Assembly (NCBI GenBank): GCA_937944885.1
Contig: CALFBB010000002.1
Span: forward strand, 1-64,000
Source of the DNA: an uncultured cyanobacterium
GTDB taxonomy: Bacteria; Cyanobacteriota; Cyanobacteriia; Thermostichales; Thermostichaceae
DNA length: 64,000 nucleotides
Reading direction: 5' to 3'
Positions 41,291 to 52,789 of the stretch are shown here, piece by piece. The first letter of the stretch is position 1; each line of letters starts with the position of its first letter. A model generated the notes under the pieces. That model was not told where the DNA came from. It made no database searches and saw only the letters and a list, made by a program, of their open reading frames with translations. Position numbers and translations under genes: made by a program.

Positions 41291-41392
41291 CTAGGTTAGA
41301 TGCTCACCAAACACCGCCAACAGAAGGGTCAAGATCACCAAATCTGACAAGAGGATTCCTAAGGGGAGCTTTGGATTCAGTAACTTAGCCAC
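41291..41392 (-). CDS. Possible 33-aa single-span membrane peptide
   Basis: A GTG at 41392, inside the end of the upstream beta-barrel gene (16-bp overlap), opens 33 codons. They include LPLGILLSDLVILTLLLAV, a clean membrane segment, and the frame ends at a TAG at 41291-41293. The size is like that of photosystem small subunits, but the sequence matches none that I know, and no ribosome site is evident. It may be a chance frame. Confidence 0.2.
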   Translation of the reverse strand: MAKLLNPKLPLGILLSDLVILTLLLAVFGEHLT

Positions 41393-42228
41393 ACATAACC
41401 GGTGACCCCACCGCCGGCTCTGGTGTTACGTCCGCTCAGGTAGTGAAACCCTCCCAAGCCGAGCGTCGGGCCGCCACCCAAGCGCCAATTTAACTGGCCA
41501 GAAAGTTTCAGGCTGTCATAATCCGGATCCTGCACAGGCTCACCCTCAAACAGGAGGGCAGCACCGTTGCCCAGGGTAAAATCTCCATCCAAAGCCAGGA
41601 TAATCTGCAGATCCCGTAGCAGGTCTGCTCCGGCAGTGAGGTTGGCTTTGATGCGATCACCCGGGTAGCCCAAGTAGTCCCGAAAAGTGAGGCAGGAGTC
41701 GAAAAAGGTGGGCAGGGATCCCATGCGTCCATAGACCGCCACACCTCCACTTAGGTCGTAGCCAAAAATACCGTATCCCAGAGGCAAGGGAGTGGTTTGG
41801 GTATCGTAGCCGGGTGGGATTAAAGCGGTGAGCTGCGCCGAAAAGAAGGGATCCCCATCCCCCCAAGAGTAGCGCAGGCCTAGCTCCACATCTCGTAGGC
41901 CTTGGTTGCGCTGGGTAATGGTTTCTGGGCCACTGGCAAAACGGTTTTCTAGAAAAGCATAGGCTGTATTCAGGCTAACGGTCAGGCGATCCGTCAGGCC
42001 GGCTTCGGCAAAGAGGCTCAGTTTACTTTCATCAAACTCCGAGGGTGCCGGCACTACTTCTCCCCCTTGATCGAATTGGGTACGTGGTCGAAAGATCTCT
42101 GGCTGTAGGGAAAAAAACAGTTTCCCTGCCCCGCGAGGAAACCCACACCCTGCCCAGCTGGGTTGTGCCCAGAAGGGGATCCCTAAGAAGAGACAACCTA
42201 TTGGCAAAAGCTTCCGCATCCTCATCAC
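41377..42228 (-). CDS. Exported beta-rich protein, probable outer-membrane barrel
   Basis: A 283-residue protein with a signal peptide (LLPIGCLFLGIPFWAQPSWAG) followed by alternating amphipathic strands, such as LTVSLNTAYAFLEN, RDVELGLRYSWGDG and TLGLGGFHYLSG. It ends with an aromatic residue (GYVWLSY), as outer-membrane beta-barrels do. I do not recognise a named family. The start may be ATG 42228 or the Met two residues later. Two genes with possible envelope roles lie upstream on the same strand. Confidence 0.72.
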   Translation of the reverse strand: MMRMRKLLPIGCLFLGIPFWAQPSWAGCGFPRGAGKLFFSLQPEIFRPRTQFDQGGEVVPAPSEFDESKLSLFAEAGLTDRLTVSLNTAYAFLENRFASGPETITQRNQGLRDVELGLRYSWGDGDPFFSAQLTALIPPGYDTQTTPLPLGYGIFGYDLSGGVAVYGRMGSLPTFFDSCLTFRDYLGYPGDRIKANLTAGADLLRDLQIILALDGDFTLGNGAALLFEGEPVQDPDYDSLKLSGQLNWRLGGGPTLGLGGFHYLSGRNTRAGGGVTGYVWLSY

Positions 42229-42363
42229 TCACTTCTCCTGTTCTGGGCAAGCCACGGCCTAAAGCCAGTCTGACCTAAGTAATCGTACACAACGCAGACC
42301 AAGTTGGGCCACCTTGCCAGAGATTGCCAGCAGGATTGAGTTTATTCAGCCCCTGCCAACCCA

Positions 42364-43428
42364 TCAGCTCACTCGGGTGCGAAACTGACGGGCTGCTGTC
42401 AGTGCACCAAAGGGATCCCCTTTGTAAAGTCCGTAGTGCATCAGAGACATGCGCCGCAGACCCAGGCGCGAGACCTCAGCCAGCCAATCCGGTTGGCTCA
42501 TGATTTGAAAATCCTCTTGCACGGTGTCGGCTCGTCCACCACTGGGGTGTTTGTCTTTAATGGCCGGCTCGTAGTGGGCCAACATCAGGTTGCTGTGGAT
42601 GGGGGAAAACAACTGGCAACAAAGACGGATCTGTTCCGGGTTACCGGGATCCGGTGCGTTTAACTCCGGGTTAAATTCCCCCGTTCGCCGCTGGCGCATC
42701 GATTGGAAGGCGATCCCATCCATTTGGCTCATCATCTCAGCAAAGGGATCCACCATGCTGCGTCCGCTGCCCCGTTCCGGTTGATCAAAGGTGGCGATCC
42801 AGCCGCCCCAGCAGAGGGCCACCTGCGCTTCCGGCAACCGCTCCTTGATCACCTGCCGTGCCTTGAGAAGATTCTGCATCAAAGCCTGGTAGTAGGGAGC
42901 CGTCTCGCTGTTGTAGGTATCGGCAGGTACACGCCAGTAGGAAAACTCCGTAGCCAAGCTCCAGTCGGTGCGGCGGCCCTGGGGATTGGCTTGAGCCATG
43001 TAACCAGCCAGTTCCCCGACATCCTCCAGAAATTGCTCCGAGAGGTGGTACTCCCCGCAAGGGCGGGTGGTGTCATCTTCCCAGGTGATGATGTGCAGGC
43101 TGTAACCCCGCTCAAACCAGTCCGCCAGCCACCCGGCTTGGTGCCAATCCCGCCAGAAAGATAGATCCCCCCTCTTGTGGTCAAAGCTGTTCAGCCAACC
43201 ACTCAAAAAGTGGGGATCCCAGGCTTGGGCCACGGCTGCCACCTGCGGATCAGACTCTATTTCCCAAATGAACCGACCGGGATCCTCCCCAATACCCACC
43301 TGCCAGCCCAAGCCGCTCATTCTCTTACCCATGTCTAAACAAGCACTAGCCATCGCCATCGGTCCCAGAGCAGCCGCCCCCAGCTGTAAAAAGCGCCGCC
43401 GACTGTGTCTGATTCGCATGGCACCCAT
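42364..43428 (-). CDS. Tat-exported protein, possibly glycosidase-like (alpha/beta barrel)
   Basis: A 354-residue protein with a twin-arginine signal (RRRFLQLGAAALGPMAMASA), so it is probably exported folded. The mature part is Trp-rich and reads like an alpha/beta-barrel hydrolase: PHFLSGWLNSFDHKRGD, HIITWEDDTTRPCG, WSLATEFSYWRVP and GGWIATFDQ. The Glu/Asp-rich strand ends would suit a glycoside hydrolase of the GH26/GH39 kind, but I cannot name the family and the activity is conjecture. Its 5' end overlaps the 3' end of the polytopic membrane gene by 83 bp in another frame. Confidence 0.75.
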   Translation of the reverse strand: MGAMRIRHSRRRFLQLGAAALGPMAMASACLDMGKRMSGLGWQVGIGEDPGRFIWEIESDPQVAAVAQAWDPHFLSGWLNSFDHKRGDLSFWRDWHQAGWLADWFERGYSLHIITWEDDTTRPCGEYHLSEQFLEDVGELAGYMAQANPQGRRTDWSLATEFSYWRVPADTYNSETAPYYQALMQNLLKARQVIKERLPEAQVALCWGGWIATFDQPERGSGRSMVDPFAEMMSQMDGIAFQSMRQRRTGEFNPELNAPDPGNPEQIRLCCQLFSPIHSNLMLAHYEPAIKDKHPSGGRADTVQEDFQIMSQPDWLAEVSRLGLRRMSLMHYGLYKGDPFGALTAARQFRTRVS

Positions 43429-45028
43429 TCCCTTGCCGCATCAACAACCTTAAAGACCAAGACGGTGATCCCGGCAACGCAAAAGTAGATTCACCCTCCA
43501 CCAACCCGTAAACCTCAAGAAACCCAGGTAGTGAGCCAAAGGTTAGCTCCGGCCAAAATTGTAGCAGTCGATCCGACTGTCCTAAGGGATCCCCTAGCCC
43601 CGACAACAGCAGGTAATCGGTCCAGTCTTGGGGCTGTTGTAGGGCGAGGGCAAATTCGTACTGATGGGGCGTAATAAACAAACGTGGATCCCTGGCCCAG
43701 AAGATGGCCTCAAAATGCAGAGCATCATCCACAAGAACCCGCTCTTTGGGGAGTAGATGCTGGAATAGGTACTGCCCCACCTGTCGATGGGCTTGCCGTT
43801 GGGCCCGCCACGAGACCAGAAGCTCCTGCTGCCCTGGAGGCTGGGTGTCAAGCTCCGCCTGCGGTCGTAACCGTTGCCACAGCTCCTGTTCTTCTGGCAC
43901 CAAAAAACCTTGGTCAAGAACATAACCACCGCTAAACAAGCTGAGGAGCAGCACAACCGTAATCCCTAGCTTCTGCAAGCTGCTGACTCGGCTCCTGAGT
44001 CTTAAATAGGATCCCAACAGGAGCGGCATCAGCACCCAAAAGATCCCGAAGCGGCTCAGCTCCGGTACAAAAAGCCCCTGCCAGAAGGAAGCCAGAACCA
44101 TCACCAACGGCAATGCCCAACACAGAAGCCAGACCCAGCGCCCCCGACCGTAAGCAAGAAACGTCACCAACCCCAGCAGCACATAGGCAGGCACCACCGC
44201 CAACAGCCAGCGTCCCGTCTCCAATAGGCTATCCCACCCCCCTGCGGAGCGTAGCCAAGCTTGCCATTGGGGCAACCGCAACCCACTCCCGGGTTCGTAG
44301 GTAAAAGTCCAGGGATCCCCCTTGGCCAACCAGTTTATATACAGCCAGCCCAGGATCAGCACCACACTCATGAAGCTGACCACCAACACCGCTGTAGCCC
44401 GGAAACCCCAAGCTTCTCGCCATAGGGCCACCACCACCAGCAAGATCATCCACGGCAGCAGCCACCAACTTTCCCAACGCAGCAGCATCAAAGGGGATAA
44501 CCCCAGACCCAGGAGCACCAGTCGTAGGTTTAGGGGCAAAGATCCGCCGAGGAATGCCTGCTGAGGGTTCTGGTAGCTCAGAGGTAGAAGCAGGAGCATA
44601 TTGAAGCTGAGCAATCCCGCCGTTGCGGCCCAACTGGGGCTGCGCAACAGCATCAAACCCAAGCTGGGCTGTACAACCATGAGCATTCCCCATAGCCAGC
44701 GCCACCCTACTCCCACCGGCAGCTGAGCCAACAGTTGCCACCACCACACCACTACCACCGTTCCCAGCAGCAGTTGCAACAGCAGCGGCGATCCGAGAAT
44801 AGCTGTCCCCAACACCAATAGAGGCGGAAAACTCACCCCCACAGTCGTTAAACGGGGATCCGGACCCATTGCTGCTACGGATCCCTTGTAGCCTAGAAAT
44901 TGCAGCTCCAGACTCACCCACCCCCAGCCCCAGAGCAGTCCCAGCAAAACCAGTCCCAGGAGTACAAACGGAATAGCAGTAGAACGCAAAAATCGAAAGG
45001 AGCTCTTAAGTGGTGTTGCCGGAAACAT
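43346..45028 (-). CDS. Polytopic membrane protein, possible GT-C-type glycosyltransferase
   Basis: A 560-residue protein with about 11 hydrophobic segments (residues about 15-370) and a C-terminal soluble domain (about 380-525). The layout (many spans, then a mixed alpha/beta domain with RVLVDDALHFEAIFWARDPR) resembles GT-C or ArnT/GT39-like lipid-sugar transferases, but the catalytic acidic pair in the first loop is not obvious. The last 35 or so residues (from LLMRQGNG) look unlike a protein end and lie inside the next gene, suggesting a lost stop codon. It probably lies in the cytoplasmic membrane. Function unproven. Confidence 0.72.
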   Translation of the reverse strand: MFPATPLKSSFRFLRSTAIPFVLLGLVLLGLLWGWGWVSLELQFLGYKGSVAAMGPDPRLTTVGVSFPPLLVLGTAILGSPLLLQLLLGTVVVVWWWQLLAQLPVGVGWRWLWGMLMVVQPSLGLMLLRSPSWAATAGLLSFNMLLLLPLSYQNPQQAFLGGSLPLNLRLVLLGLGLSPLMLLRWESWWLLPWMILLVVVALWREAWGFRATAVLVVSFMSVVLILGWLYINWLAKGDPWTFTYEPGSGLRLPQWQAWLRSAGGWDSLLETGRWLLAVVPAYVLLGLVTFLAYGRGRWVWLLCWALPLVMVLASFWQGLFVPELSRFGIFWVLMPLLLGSYLRLRSRVSSLQKLGITVVLLLSLFSGGYVLDQGFLVPEEQELWQRLRPQAELDTQPPGQQELLVSWRAQRQAHRQVGQYLFQHLLPKERVLVDDALHFEAIFWARDPRLFITPHQYEFALALQQPQDWTDYLLLSGLGDPLGQSDRLLQFWPELTFGSLPGFLEVYGLVEGESTFALPGSPSWSLRLLMRQGNGCHANQTQSAALFTAGGGCSGTDGDG

Positions 45029-45455: not shown

Positions 45456-46697
45456 TTACGACCGCTGGGCATAAAATTCACACCACGGATCCCCTTTTTC
45501 TCGGGCTTTCACCTCCGCCCCTCCGAAAAGACCGTTCCGCTGGAATAGCCGATGGTAAAGCGCCTCATCCAAGACAGGCTTTTGCTGGATGTGCCCGTTA
45601 TAAACAACATTCATGATGGCCGGCACAGCCCCCTGGGCAAAGTAACAGCTGGGTTGGTCAGCAGAGGGGTAAGAAGCCAGGAAGTAGCTGGTCTCATAAT
45701 TACCGTCAATGGCCACACGACAAGATGTATTACTGATTACCTCTAACGCTTGCCACCGCCCCCATCCCAAACTACTGGCAACAGCATAGGCACCGTGAAC
45801 CCAATCCGTATCGGTATTTAGCATTGGGCCAACTACCGTCTCCCATTCCAGAGATTCCATGATGTTGCCAAAGGTGTAGAAGACACAAACATGGCCGGAC
45901 TCGCGGATTAAGTCCTGGCCAATCCCCAAAAGCTGAGGATCCAGCTTTTGCAGTTCATCCAGGAAGCGATATTGAATGCGGTTGTAGTAATTGGCCGGCA
46001 TCCGTGTCAGCAGCACGTTGAAGGCACGAATTTGACCTTTGTCATCCCCCTCTAGAGGCAAACTCCAGAGCGCCTCATTGACGACATCGTAATTAACACT
46101 GGTTTGGGGCAGGGGCAAAGGAGCAGGTTGCTCGATGAGCTTGCCCATTTGTGGACTAGGCGTGAGCTGGCGACGTACCGGTGCTCGCGTTACCTGAATG
46201 CGGCAGGACCCTTGACGGGTTACCGCCACACAGCGGGTTTCCTCAGCTACATAGGTCCCTAACTCGGCAAATGTGGCATCTAAGGCAGCGGCTACATAGC
46301 CCACCGCCATGTGATCAATGGGCTTAGTGCGGTTCACCTGCTCGCCATACTTCCCTAGCCAGCCTGTGGCGTAGTGGGAGTTGGCCAATTCCACCTCCCC
46401 CCCTCCCTCAGTGACTTCGAAGTTAAGCTGACCAAAGCCCAAAAAGCTAAACATCCGGGCCGCTGTGGCCAGTCGCTCTGCTGCTGTCTCTATCCCAAGG
46501 GTAACAAAGGCATTTTTCAGCAGACTGTAGAAGATTTCCTGCGCGGAGGTCTGCAGAATACTCACACCATCAATCCAATCCGGATCTTCAATGGTTTGCT
46601 GCAAGAACAGATTGTAGTGGTGACAGTGAAAGATCACTGGCTCGTTAAACAAGCCAACCAGCTTGCGGAGGCGATCGATCTGTAGGTGCGAAAACAT
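45456..46697 (-). CDS. Tandem V4R-domain protein
   Basis: A 413-residue protein that I read as two V4R (vinyl-4-reductase/TRAPP-like) domains. In the first half, LGFGQLNFEVTEGGGEVELA, a central HMAVGYVAAALDATF helix and the Cys-containing hairpin EETRCVAVTRQGSCRIQV follow the V4R pattern. The second half repeats it: LGWGRWQALEVISNTSCRVA, PSCYFAQGAVPAIMNVVY and the closing GDPWCEF. V4R domains bind small molecules, including tetrapyrroles, and serve as regulators or assembly factors. Synechocystis V4R proteins in the slr0144-slr0152 cluster are linked to photosystem II assembly. GGAGG precedes the ATG. Function here is inferred. Confidence 0.75.
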   Translation of the reverse strand: MFSHLQIDRLRKLVGLFNEPVIFHCHHYNLFLQQTIEDPDWIDGVSILQTSAQEIFYSLLKNAFVTLGIETAAERLATAARMFSFLGFGQLNFEVTEGGGEVELANSHYATGWLGKYGEQVNRTKPIDHMAVGYVAAALDATFAELGTYVAEETRCVAVTRQGSCRIQVTRAPVRRQLTPSPQMGKLIEQPAPLPLPQTSVNYDVVNEALWSLPLEGDDKGQIRAFNVLLTRMPANYYNRIQYRFLDELQKLDPQLLGIGQDLIRESGHVCVFYTFGNIMESLEWETVVGPMLNTDTDWVHGAYAVASSLGWGRWQALEVISNTSCRVAIDGNYETSYFLASYPSADQPSCYFAQGAVPAIMNVVYNGHIQQKPVLDEALYHRLFQRNGLFGGAEVKAREKGDPWCEFYAQRS

Positions 46698-46797: not shown

Positions 46798-47292
46798 CTA
46801 GGGAAGGGCAATGGGGAGACGCTCGGTCCCTAGTATGTCCGCCACAGCCTTGTAGAGAATGCGCACCTCCTGTTCATTTAACTCCCCTTTCTCCAGCCGC
46901 TCCCGGTGTAGACCTGTTTTCAAAGACAGCCGCAATGTAACAAAGTTGGGATCCGGAGCATAGCGGCGAGCATAGTTCAACAAAAGTTTTGCCGTCGAGA
47001 CAGCCTGATCTTGCACAGGGGGCAGTAGCGGCTTCCCATCCACCAAAATGGCATTGATGCGCTCAAGCACCAGCTTGAGGTTGGTACTACTCTTGGTGAG
47101 GAGCAAGACAAAGTAAGGGGTTTTACTGAAAGCTTTGATTACTAGCCGCACTTCCGCTGAGCCTGCTAGCAGATAGTCTGCCTCTGAGGCAGAACCCACC
47201 ACTTGGCAAACCCGATTGTTCGCTCGCAATAGGTCACTGGCATAGGTCCCTAGAGAATCGAGAGCAGCCTTCTCCAAACTGTCGCTACTCAA
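46798..47292 (-). CDS. Possible roadblock/LC7-like small protein upstream of the V4R gene
   Basis: A 164-residue protein read from TTG 47292. The central part (EVRLVIKAFSKTPYFVLLLT then NLKLVLERINAIL) resembles the last strands and helix of roadblock/LC7 domains, with a helical C-terminal extension (LSLKTGLHRERLEKGELNE). The first half of a roadblock fold is short or absent, so the match is partial. The start is odd. A strong AGGAGG serves an ATG at 47308 that opens only seven codons in another frame and ends just inside this gene (see 47285-47308). The gene lies 100 bp upstream of the V4R gene on the same strand. Confidence 0.6.
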   Translation of the reverse strand: MSSDSLEKAALDSLGTYASDLLRANNRVCQVVGSASEADYLLAGSAEVRLVIKAFSKTPYFVLLLTKSSTNLKLVLERINAILVDGKPLLPPVQDQAVSTAKLLLNYARRYAPDPNFVTLRLSLKTGLHRERLEKGELNEQEVRILYKAVADILGTERLPIALP

Positions 47293-50401: not shown

Positions 50402-52789
50402 GTGAGCAAAACGATACCTGATAGTGACCTCAAAATTATGAAGTCTGCTGCCTTCTCTAATTTTGCTGCCCTGTTTTTGGAATCCTGGCTGATTCGCGCC
50501 GGTTATCTCACCCCTGAGCAACTGGCACAAGCCCGTGAGTATCAACAGAAGGCTTACTGCTCCTTGCCGCGTGCCCTTTGGAGCTTGCAGCAGATGCACC
50601 CCTCTAAGTTTGTTCGCTTATGGTCGGGTTTTGCCAACCGACCTACCCTATGGCAATGGCTAAAACAGCATCCCCTTGACCCCGAGCTGATCTGGCTGGT
50701 TGAGTCAACGGATCTGTTACCGGTGCGCTTCTTACCCTGTGGGTGGGCTGATATCAGAACCCGCACTTTGGTGGTTGCGGCTGAAGAACCCGGACATCCC
50801 GAAGTGCGACGCAATGTACAGCGCCTCTTTCCCGAAGTCAAGGTTTGGGAAATCCCAGCTACCGAGCAGCAGATCCTTTCAGTACTTGTGGAATACAAAC
50901 TGACAGTCGACTTGCTAGGCAGCAAGCTAACCCTGGAAGAATGGCAGCGGGTGCAATTAACACGCAGGCGTACCGGTTCCAGCTTGGGGCAGGTTTTAAC
51001 CCGCTTGAACTACGTGCCCTCAGGGGAGTACCTGAATATCCTCACCCAGCTGTTGGGCTACCCGATATTTTCAGATCTGATCGGTACCGGCTTGCTTTAC
51101 CTGGATCCCGCCCTGAGCGAAGGCTTCGATTCAAACGTGATGATGCGGCACCTTTTTTACCCTCTTGCTTGGGTAAAAGAAGACACCCTCATGGTGATGG
51201 TGGAGGATCCCCTAGATCCGGTGGTGGACGAATCCATTTATGCCTTACGCCCCGGCTTGTGTATTGAAAAGGTCTTAGGAACGGAGAGGGACTTAACCCA
51301 TCTGTTGGCTGAAAGCCATGGAGCCAAATTCAGCCAAGATGCGGTGTACCGTCTGCTAGGGCGATTGCCGGAAGAATCTGCTTCACGAGTGTTTACCCTA
51401 CCCCAAATCCTTGTCGGCTACGGCCTACTGGTTTTTCTAGCCTGGGGTTTGGCAGCGGCTCCCTGGACTACCCTCACCCTCTTGGTGTCGCTGGTGAATC
51501 TCTTCTACATCAGCTCTATTGCTTACAAATTTCTTCTCAGTTTAGTGGGATCCAACGACCAAGCCCATTACATCACCGACGCAGAGGTGGCAGCCCTAGA
51601 TGATCGCAGTCTTCCCATTTACACCATTCTGGTGCCGGTGTACAACGAGCCGGAGGTGATGCCGATTTTGATTGGATCCCTAGCGAAGCTGGATTACCCC
51701 CACGAAAAGTTAGATGTCCTGATCCTGTTGGAGGAAAAGGATCAAGTGACCATTGATGCAGCGCGGGCTGCCAAGCCCCCCAACTTTGTTCGCTTGATTC
51801 GTGTGCCGGAAAGCCATCCCAAAACCAAACCCAAAGCCTGTAACTATGGTCTTGCCTTTGCCCGCGGTGATTATCTCACCATTTATGATGCTGAGGATAT
51901 TCCAGAGCCGGATCAACTGAAAAAAGCCATCATTGCCTTCCGCAAGGGGGATCCCAGTCTGATGTGTGTTCAGGCGGCTCTCAACTACTTCAACCGCAGT
52001 GAGAACTTCCTCACCCGCATGTTTACCTTGGAATACTCCTATTGGTTTGACTATCTGTTGCCGGGGTTACAGGCTCTGAAAATGCCCATTCCTCTAGGGG
52101 GAACCAGTAACCACTTTCGCACCGACCGCCTGCGAGAGTTGGAAGGATGGGATCCCTTTAATGTAACCGAAGATGCGGATCTGGGAATTCGGGCTAGCCA
52201 ACACGGCTACACGGTTGGTGTAATCAACTCTACCACCTACGAAGAGGCCAACTGTGCTCTCAAAAATTGGATTCGTCAGCGTTCTCGCTGGATCAAGGGC
52301 TATATGCAAACGTGGTTGGTGCACAACCGGCGCCCTTTGAAATCTTTGCGCAAATTGGGCTTGAAAAACTGGCTTTCCTATCAATTTTTTATTGGGGGTA
52401 CAGTTTTAACCTTTCTAACCAGCCCTATTATGTGGCTTATCTTTTTCTTTTGGTTGTTTACCCGTGCTACCTGGCTACAAAATCTCTTCCCCAGTTGGTT
52501 AATTTATGTTGGGCTCTTCAACCTAATCATAGGCAATGGAATTGGCATCTACCTGAACTTGACTGCTGTTTTCCGGCGCGGGTACTACGATCTGACTCTC
52601 TATGCTCTTCTTAACCCTATCTACTGGCAGCTCCACTCCATTGCCGCCTATATGGCCCTCTGGCAGCTGTTTACCAAACCCTTTTACTGGGAAAAAACTA
52701 TCCATGGCTTGAGTAAATTCACCCAAGCCAAGGTCCATGCTGCCACTCACTCCATTGACTCGGCTGGAGCCACAGCTGAGAAACCCTAG
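50402..52789 (+). CDS. Processive GT2 glycosyltransferase with N-terminal MshEN-type domain
   Basis: A 795-residue membrane enzyme. Residues about 30-165 and 172-305 look like two MshEN (T2SSE N-terminal) repeats, the second clear (LTLEEWQRVQLTRRRTGSSL, then GQVLTRL). Two membrane helices (about 333-385) precede a GT2 catalytic domain with VPVYNEPEVMPIL, DAED at 496-499, TEDADLG at 589-595 and QRSRW at 626-630, and four or so membrane helices follow. It should polymerise a sugar and export it. MshEN domains can bind c-di-GMP, suggesting allosteric control. E. coli NfrB combines the same two domains in the opposite order. The start may be GTG 50402 or ATG 50438. Confidence 0.9.
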   Translation: MSKTIPDSDLKIMKSAAFSNFAALFLESWLIRAGYLTPEQLAQAREYQQKAYCSLPRALWSLQQMHPSKFVRLWSGFANRPTLWQWLKQHPLDPELIWLVESTDLLPVRFLPCGWADIRTRTLVVAAEEPGHPEVRRNVQRLFPEVKVWEIPATEQQILSVLVEYKLTVDLLGSKLTLEEWQRVQLTRRRTGSSLGQVLTRLNYVPSGEYLNILTQLLGYPIFSDLIGTGLLYLDPALSEGFDSNVMMRHLFYPLAWVKEDTLMVMVEDPLDPVVDESIYALRPGLCIEKVLGTERDLTHLLAESHGAKFSQDAVYRLLGRLPEESASRVFTLPQILVGYGLLVFLAWGLAAAPWTTLTLLVSLVNLFYISSIAYKFLLSLVGSNDQAHYITDAEVAALDDRSLPIYTILVPVYNEPEVMPILIGSLAKLDYPHEKLDVLILLEEKDQVTIDAARAAKPPNFVRLIRVPESHPKTKPKACNYGLAFARGDYLTIYDAEDIPEPDQLKKAIIAFRKGDPSLMCVQAALNYFNRSENFLTRMFTLEYSYWFDYLLPGLQALKMPIPLGGTSNHFRTDRLRELEGWDPFNVTEDADLGIRASQHGYTVGVINSTTYEEANCALKNWIRQRSRWIKGYMQTWLVHNRRPLKSLRKLGLKNWLSYQFFIGGTVLTFLTSPIMWLIFFFWLFTRATWLQNLFPSWLIYVGLFNLIIGNGIGIYLNLTAVFRRGYYDLTLYALLNPIYWQLHSIAAYMALWQLFTKPFYWEKTIHGLSKFTQAKVHAATHSIDSAGATAEKP

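Follow-up and report, generated by a model that had tools for sequence, protein, structure and literature searches.

Does the GT2 glycosyltransferase encoded beside a BcsB-like gene in this cyanobacterial DNA make a c-di-GMP-controlled exopolysaccharide other than cellulose, as had been proposed from the sequence? We addressed this question in the window, by which we mean the whole 64,000-nucleotide stretch analyzed here, and in relatives of the enzyme from other genomes. Our analysis favors, at a probability of about two in three, a six-gene, synthase-dependent system for a non-cellulose exopolysaccharide, possibly mannose-based, in which the doubled MshEN module has decayed and c-di-GMP control has probably been lost.

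The synthase and its neighboring genes

A Pfam search of the 795-aa synthase identified a GT2 domain (PF13641, 4.6e-24, residues 407-633) and MshEN (PF05157, 5.1e-12) in two stretches, the best of which covers residues 232-304. No PilZ match was found by the same search across the whole protein. The AlphaFold2 model (mean pLDDT 84.7) shows, from the N- to the C-terminus, two tandem helical and alpha/beta MshEN-like modules, two membrane helices, the glycosyltransferase domain and further membrane helices. Pfam and the model therefore agree with the original prediction that two MshEN-like repeats precede the catalytic domain, and that MshEN occupies the N-terminus in place of the PilZ domain of BcsA. 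Furthermore, a profile built from 50 homologues matched the crystal structure of Vibrio cholerae MshE (5htl, 1.9e-13), as well as Thermus PilF domains, several type IV pilus ATPases, and BcsA and other cellulose synthases. A fold search with the model retrieved hyaluronan and cellulose synthases, together with the archaeal mannosyltransferase 6yv7 (TM-score of about 0.65 by target). The motifs of processive GT2 enzymes (DxD, TED and QxxRW) are present, the first as DAED instead of a strict DxD, and D496-A-E-D499, T589-E-D591, and Q626 and W630 of QRSRW (626-630) are invariant among the 50 aligned homologues.

Features of the locus, in window coordinates.
Feature	Position	Strand	Remarks
Candidate outer-membrane beta-barrel, 283 aa	41377..42228	-	In diderm loci, homologues immediately precede GT2
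Secreted protein of unnamed family, 354 aa	42364..43428	-	Twin-arginine-like start; homologue after the GT-C gene in Aquificota
GT-C-fold membrane protein (predicted), 560 aa	43346..45028	-	Homologue directly after GT2 in other phyla
Type II mannose-6-phosphate isomerase cupin, 135 aa	47919..48326	+	PF01050
BcsB-like periplasmic partner, 646 aa	48407..50347	+	PF03170; C-terminal hydrophobic anchor
MshEN-MshEN-GT2 synthase, 795 aa	50402..52789	+	GTG start
MshEN repeat 1 (residues ~25-152)	50474..50857	+	Additional copy of cyanobacterial homologues
MshEN repeat 2 (residues ~155-292)	50864..51277	+	Matches the lone MshEN of other phyla; register read by hand
Two predicted membrane helices (residues 333-385)	51398..51556	+	Between MshEN and GT domains; AlphaFold2 model
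GT2 catalytic domain (residues ~400-640)	51599..52321	+	Pfam, AlphaFold2 model, fold search
C-terminal membrane helices (residues 645-758)	52334..52675	+	No PilZ after them

The predicted identities of the two genes upstream were borne out. The BcsB-like partner matches PF03170 (5.9e-17) with 61.7 bits against a gathering score of 21, and the mannose-6-phosphate isomerase-like cupin matches PF01050 at 1.5e-49, its guanylyltransferase half being absent.

Three more genes of the system, which had escaped the original prediction, lie divergently on the minus strand (41377-45028). The 560-aa membrane protein belongs to no Pfam family and to no NCBIfam family above cut-off. Its AlphaFold2 model (pLDDT 85.2) has STT3, ArnT, AftD, ALG9 and PMT as best Foldseek matches (probability 0.99-1.00), and from this consistent fold class we assign the model to the GT-C fold, though the E-values are 0.002 or worse. 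In the first periplasmic loop, where GT-C enzymes carry an acidic catalytic residue, the family has no invariant acidic residue; K48, R59 and P68 are conserved instead. A match of the family profile to a heat-shock factor (PDB 1hks) was at chance level and was dismissed. The GT-C frame shares 83 bases (43346-43428, minus strand) with that of the 354-aa secreted protein, an overlap that suggests coupled translation. We left the latter protein without a name, and did not retain it as a hydrolase, because no Pfam match was found at E-values up to 5 and PDB profile matches reached only 0.3. The third product is a candidate beta-barrel, as indicated by its restriction to diderms, an aromatic C-terminus and a weak Pfam match of a homologue (E 0.012). 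Two genes between the clusters (45456-46697 and 46798-47292) were not linked to the system, since their homologues are missing near all other loci; the former, on the minus strand, encodes a 413-aa protein with a V4R match (E 2.4e-4) below the gathering score.

A gene unit shared across phyla and its probable product

Relatives of the GT2 enzyme were fetched from 80 genome contigs and come from at least 14 bacterial phyla. Most have about 620 residues and a single MshEN, the additional N-terminal copy being a trait of the cyanobacterial homologues. Clustering of the neighbors placed a BcsB-like gene at 65 of about 80 loci, mostly directly upstream of GT2, and the GT-C family at 68, nearly always directly downstream, although such co-occurrence statistics overstate independence because the loci are related by descent and short contigs are among them. 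The core order in other phyla is BcsB, (barrel), MshEN-GT2, GT-C. In Aquificota it reads BcsB, a 260-aa barrel candidate, MshEN-GT2, membrane protein and secreted protein, and ends in two loci with a GDP-mannose pyrophosphorylase/isomerase. All six gene families of the window, three on the plus and three on the minus strand, thus recur beside GT2 relatives in other phyla. The barrel family occurs at 22 loci, all of them diderm, and at none of 21 monoderm loci, according to a sorting of the taxa that we take from general knowledge. Two further observations concern individual operons: a TPR protein with a PelB-type beta-barrel (PF24604, 2.7e-27), a candidate BcsC/PgaA-like exporter, is encoded upstream of the operon in Hydrogenobaculum (L010:1828-4824), and Kryptonia-type operons (L042, L058) include a CotH kinase-family secreted protein.

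Within Cyanobacteria, GT2 was found in only 5 of 386 genomes, which belong to two genera, and it is present in 6/6 species of the window's genus; the other genus is represented by the Gloeomargarita lineage. The GT-C gene (39 relatives) is found in exactly the same two genera, about 180 kb away from GT2 in one Gloeomargarita genome. The barrel family (59 relatives) is likewise limited to these genera; it is weak in Gloeomargarita, and in two members of the window's genus its gene is present yet unlinked. Among the relatives searched, the 354-aa secreted protein is confined to the window's genus. BcsB-family proteins are themselves uncommon in the phylum (16/292 cyanobacterial genomes). In the literature that we could reach we found no published description of a system combining an N-terminal MshEN-GT2 with BcsB, and an earlier one may exist.

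Which polymer might this unit make? If the enzyme were a synthase of cellulose or another beta-glucan acting on UDP-glucose, the cupin and the GDP-mannose neighbors would be incidental. A cellulose synthase model is indeed its best curated GT2 match, the partner is of the BcsB family, and a GH5-family hydrolase lies near 20 Bacteroidota loci. However, the match amounts to 72.8 bits, far under the cut-off of 699.1, and the family members inspected also remain far below it. PilZ is missing, no BcsC-type exporter was recognized among the genes of the system, and GDP-mannose synthesis genes or a cupin adjoin nine of about 80 loci, in five phyla. Moreover, we know of no cellulose operon that contains a GT-C enzyme. 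We consider a beta-glucan product improbable, and the proposal of a non-cellulose exopolysaccharide synthase is supported as the probable one.

It is also conceivable that GT2 and GT-C serve the synthesis of a glycolipid or surface glycan and not of a secreted polymer, given that GT-C enzymes use polyprenyl-phosphate sugars, that the synthase fold also matches 6yv7 and that monoderm members are devoid of the barrel. Against this stand the conserved processive QxxRW motif, the BcsB partner of most loci, and the barrel candidate of diderm loci, one of which has the PelB-type TPR barrel upstream, and we regard this explanation as very unlikely. For the secreted non-cellulose polysaccharide, the nine loci with GDP-mannose genes or a cupin and the mannosyltransferase among the fold neighbors favor a mannose-containing polymer. 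The sugar should be taken as a lead only, because the cupin comes without a guanylyltransferase half and GDP-mannose genes occur at just these nine loci.

The c-di-GMP motif in the family and in the window's genus

Ligand binding was assessed with NF053729, the curated NCBI model of the 53-residue c-di-GMP motif, which consists of two 24-residue RLGxx..Q motifs 5 residues apart and has a cut-off of 38 bits. With an E-value set to equal the cut-off, the model recognized 41 of the 50 family members, and it also accepted all five Gloeomargarita-lineage proteins scanned (40.7-66.5 bits). The motif of the relative from Thermus scotoductus (L040) is almost intact. The window protein scored 24.3 bits, and every same-genus homologue scanned also failed (27.0-29.8 bits). 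Because of this score, the PF05157 matches of the window protein must be read as MshEN homology and not as ligand binding.

Inspection of the contact positions gave the same picture. The window protein keeps 11 of 22, compared with 14-16 in Gloeomargarita and 16-21 in intact relatives outside Cyanobacteria. Shuffled versions of its sequence kept 10.1 on average and equaled or exceeded it in 28.5% of trials (p 0.285); for Gloeomargarita this happened in 0/1000. In repeat 1, motif I is partly kept (FLESWLIRAGYLTPEQLAQAREYQ) and motif II is decayed (SLPRALWSLQQMHPSKFVRLWSGF), with S, P, Q and F standing in place of the contact residues R, G, G and Q. Conversely, repeat 2 has a decayed motif I (YKLTVDLLGSKLTLEEWQRVQLTR), in which the same positions have become Y, L, S and R, and a partly kept motif II. 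The cyanobacterial GT2s form one fully supported group in our tree, within which only the window's genus fails NF053729, a distribution that suggests decay within this genus. The motif has decayed in Bacteroidota relatives too, whose operons often start with a histidine-kinase-like gene; in Mucilaginibacter and relatives (L054-L083) such a gene is usually found upstream and a GH5-family hydrolase nearby.

Could the pair nonetheless bind c-di-GMP and activate GT2, perhaps through a composite site formed by the better-kept motif of each repeat, I in the first and II in the second? The window's genome encodes four GGDEF proteins and one EAL protein and contains no detected PilZ, and therefore needs another receptor. 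The motifs are intact in most homologues, those of Gloeomargarita included, and E. coli NfrB provides a precedent, as its binding of c-di-GMP has been shown (PMC8669469, PMC8669472). Furthermore, the arginines are dispensable in Thermus PilF, where GSPII-B binds c-di-GMP at 6 nM without them (PMC11731258); since the motif tolerates changes at this residue, weak or composite binding across both repeats is possible. These points must be weighed against the failure of the window protein and its same-genus homologues in NF053729 and the replacement of R, G, G and Q in one motif of each repeat. Moreover, GSPII-A of PilF is less degenerate, one of its motifs being near-perfect and the other at 45%, and it fails to bind c-di-GMP (PMC11731258), and GspE of Xanthomonas (Xcc) lost binding through comparable changes (PMC5013675). 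Retained activation by c-di-GMP hence appears unlikely to us, and from the decayed motifs and these two non-binding proteins we conclude that binding has likely been lost in the window protein.

The contact residues, on which the original prediction had staked c-di-GMP control, are thus kept no better than by chance in the window protein, being largely gone in both repeats. For the family as a whole, judged by its sequences, such control of GT2 is likely. Elsewhere in the window's own genome (contig C45, L002) we noted an MshEN-containing protein of 342 aa whose C-terminal part resembles PilB; no obvious ATP-binding motif was seen in it.

Proposed mechanism and comparison with known systems

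In the mechanism that we propose, GT2 would build the chain from a nucleotide sugar at the cytoplasmic face of the membrane and extrude it via its own membrane helices, and the BcsB-like protein would receive it in the periplasm. The GT-C enzyme, using a polyprenyl-phosphate sugar as donor, might then decorate or branch the chain or act on an acceptor. Judging by gene position, the small barrel could let the chain out through the outer membrane, and the 354-aa secreted protein could trim or modify it. That the product contains mannose or a GDP-sugar is suggested by the cupin and by the GDP-mannose synthesis genes that recur near relatives. Ancestrally, the family's N-terminal MshEN presumably gated GT2 by binding c-di-GMP. 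In the window's genus, MshEN would have been doubled and its binding residues would have decayed; most likely the two copies now have a structural role, are constitutive or respond to a different partner. Of this scheme, sequences and models show the domains, the fold, the linkage of the genes and the decay of the motifs, and the polymer, the part played by each subunit and the loss of regulation are inferred.

These results define a conserved polysaccharide machine, common in thermophiles, made of BcsB, MshEN-GT2 and GT-C, plus a barrel in diderms. It would represent another route, besides PilZ and NfrB, for attaching c-di-GMP control to a GT2 synthase, and the intact motifs of Gloeomargarita versus the decayed ones of the window's genus make gain or loss of this control directly testable in one enzyme. 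If the system is active, part of the extracellular matrix of a hot-spring cyanobacterium would come from it. A more ambitious and still doubtful proposal is that MshEN-gated GT2, BcsB and GT-C form a new synthase class in at least 14 phyla that makes a branched polymer derived from GDP-mannose, the MshEN of the hot-spring genus being a pseudo-receptor that takes another input.

Several known systems invite comparison. Synechocystis Sll1377 was rejected as a model homologue, being the glycolipid synthase MgdA. ArnT, PMT, STT3 and AftD are GT-C glycosyltransferases that have the predicted fold of the 560-aa membrane protein in common, the latter lying outside any Pfam family. The MshEN repeats fall in the same profile family as the MshEN of MshE and the GSPII domains that Thermus PilF carries in tandem (PMC5013675, PMC11731258), and like the PilF copies they are unequally conserved; unlike in MshE and PilF, they are fused to a glycosyltransferase and most of their contact residues are gone. 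With the BcsA-BcsB cellulose synthase, the system shares the processive GT2 core, the membrane helices and the BcsB-family partner. It differs by its N-terminal MshEN instead of PilZ, its GT-C enzyme and small barrel, the GDP-mannose genes near some relatives and a score far from the cellulose synthase cut-off; with PilZ missing and the score low, we did not file the enzyme as BcsA.

The synthase of the N4 glycan receptor of E. coli, NfrB/NfrA (PMC8669469, PMC8669472), likewise combines a GT2-MshEN fusion with synthase-dependent export, and NfrB-like binding of c-di-GMP is likely for the intact homologues of the window system. In NfrB, however, GT2 is N-terminal and MshEN C-terminal; the window synthase has the reverse order, with MshEN duplicated and decayed. 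The partners also differ, namely NfrA and YbcH on the one hand and the BcsB-like protein, GT-C enzyme and barrel on the other, and no NfrA-like gene was recognized among the genes of the system. The NCBI NfrB model (cut-off 1170 bits) gave at most 34.5 bits for the homologues inspected and was not listed for the window protein. The parallel originally drawn with NfrB therefore holds by analogy and does not extend to the partners, and with domain order and partners both different, the enzyme was not filed as NfrB. We view the MshEN-GT2/BcsB/GT-C system as a new variant that stands between BcsAB and NfrB.
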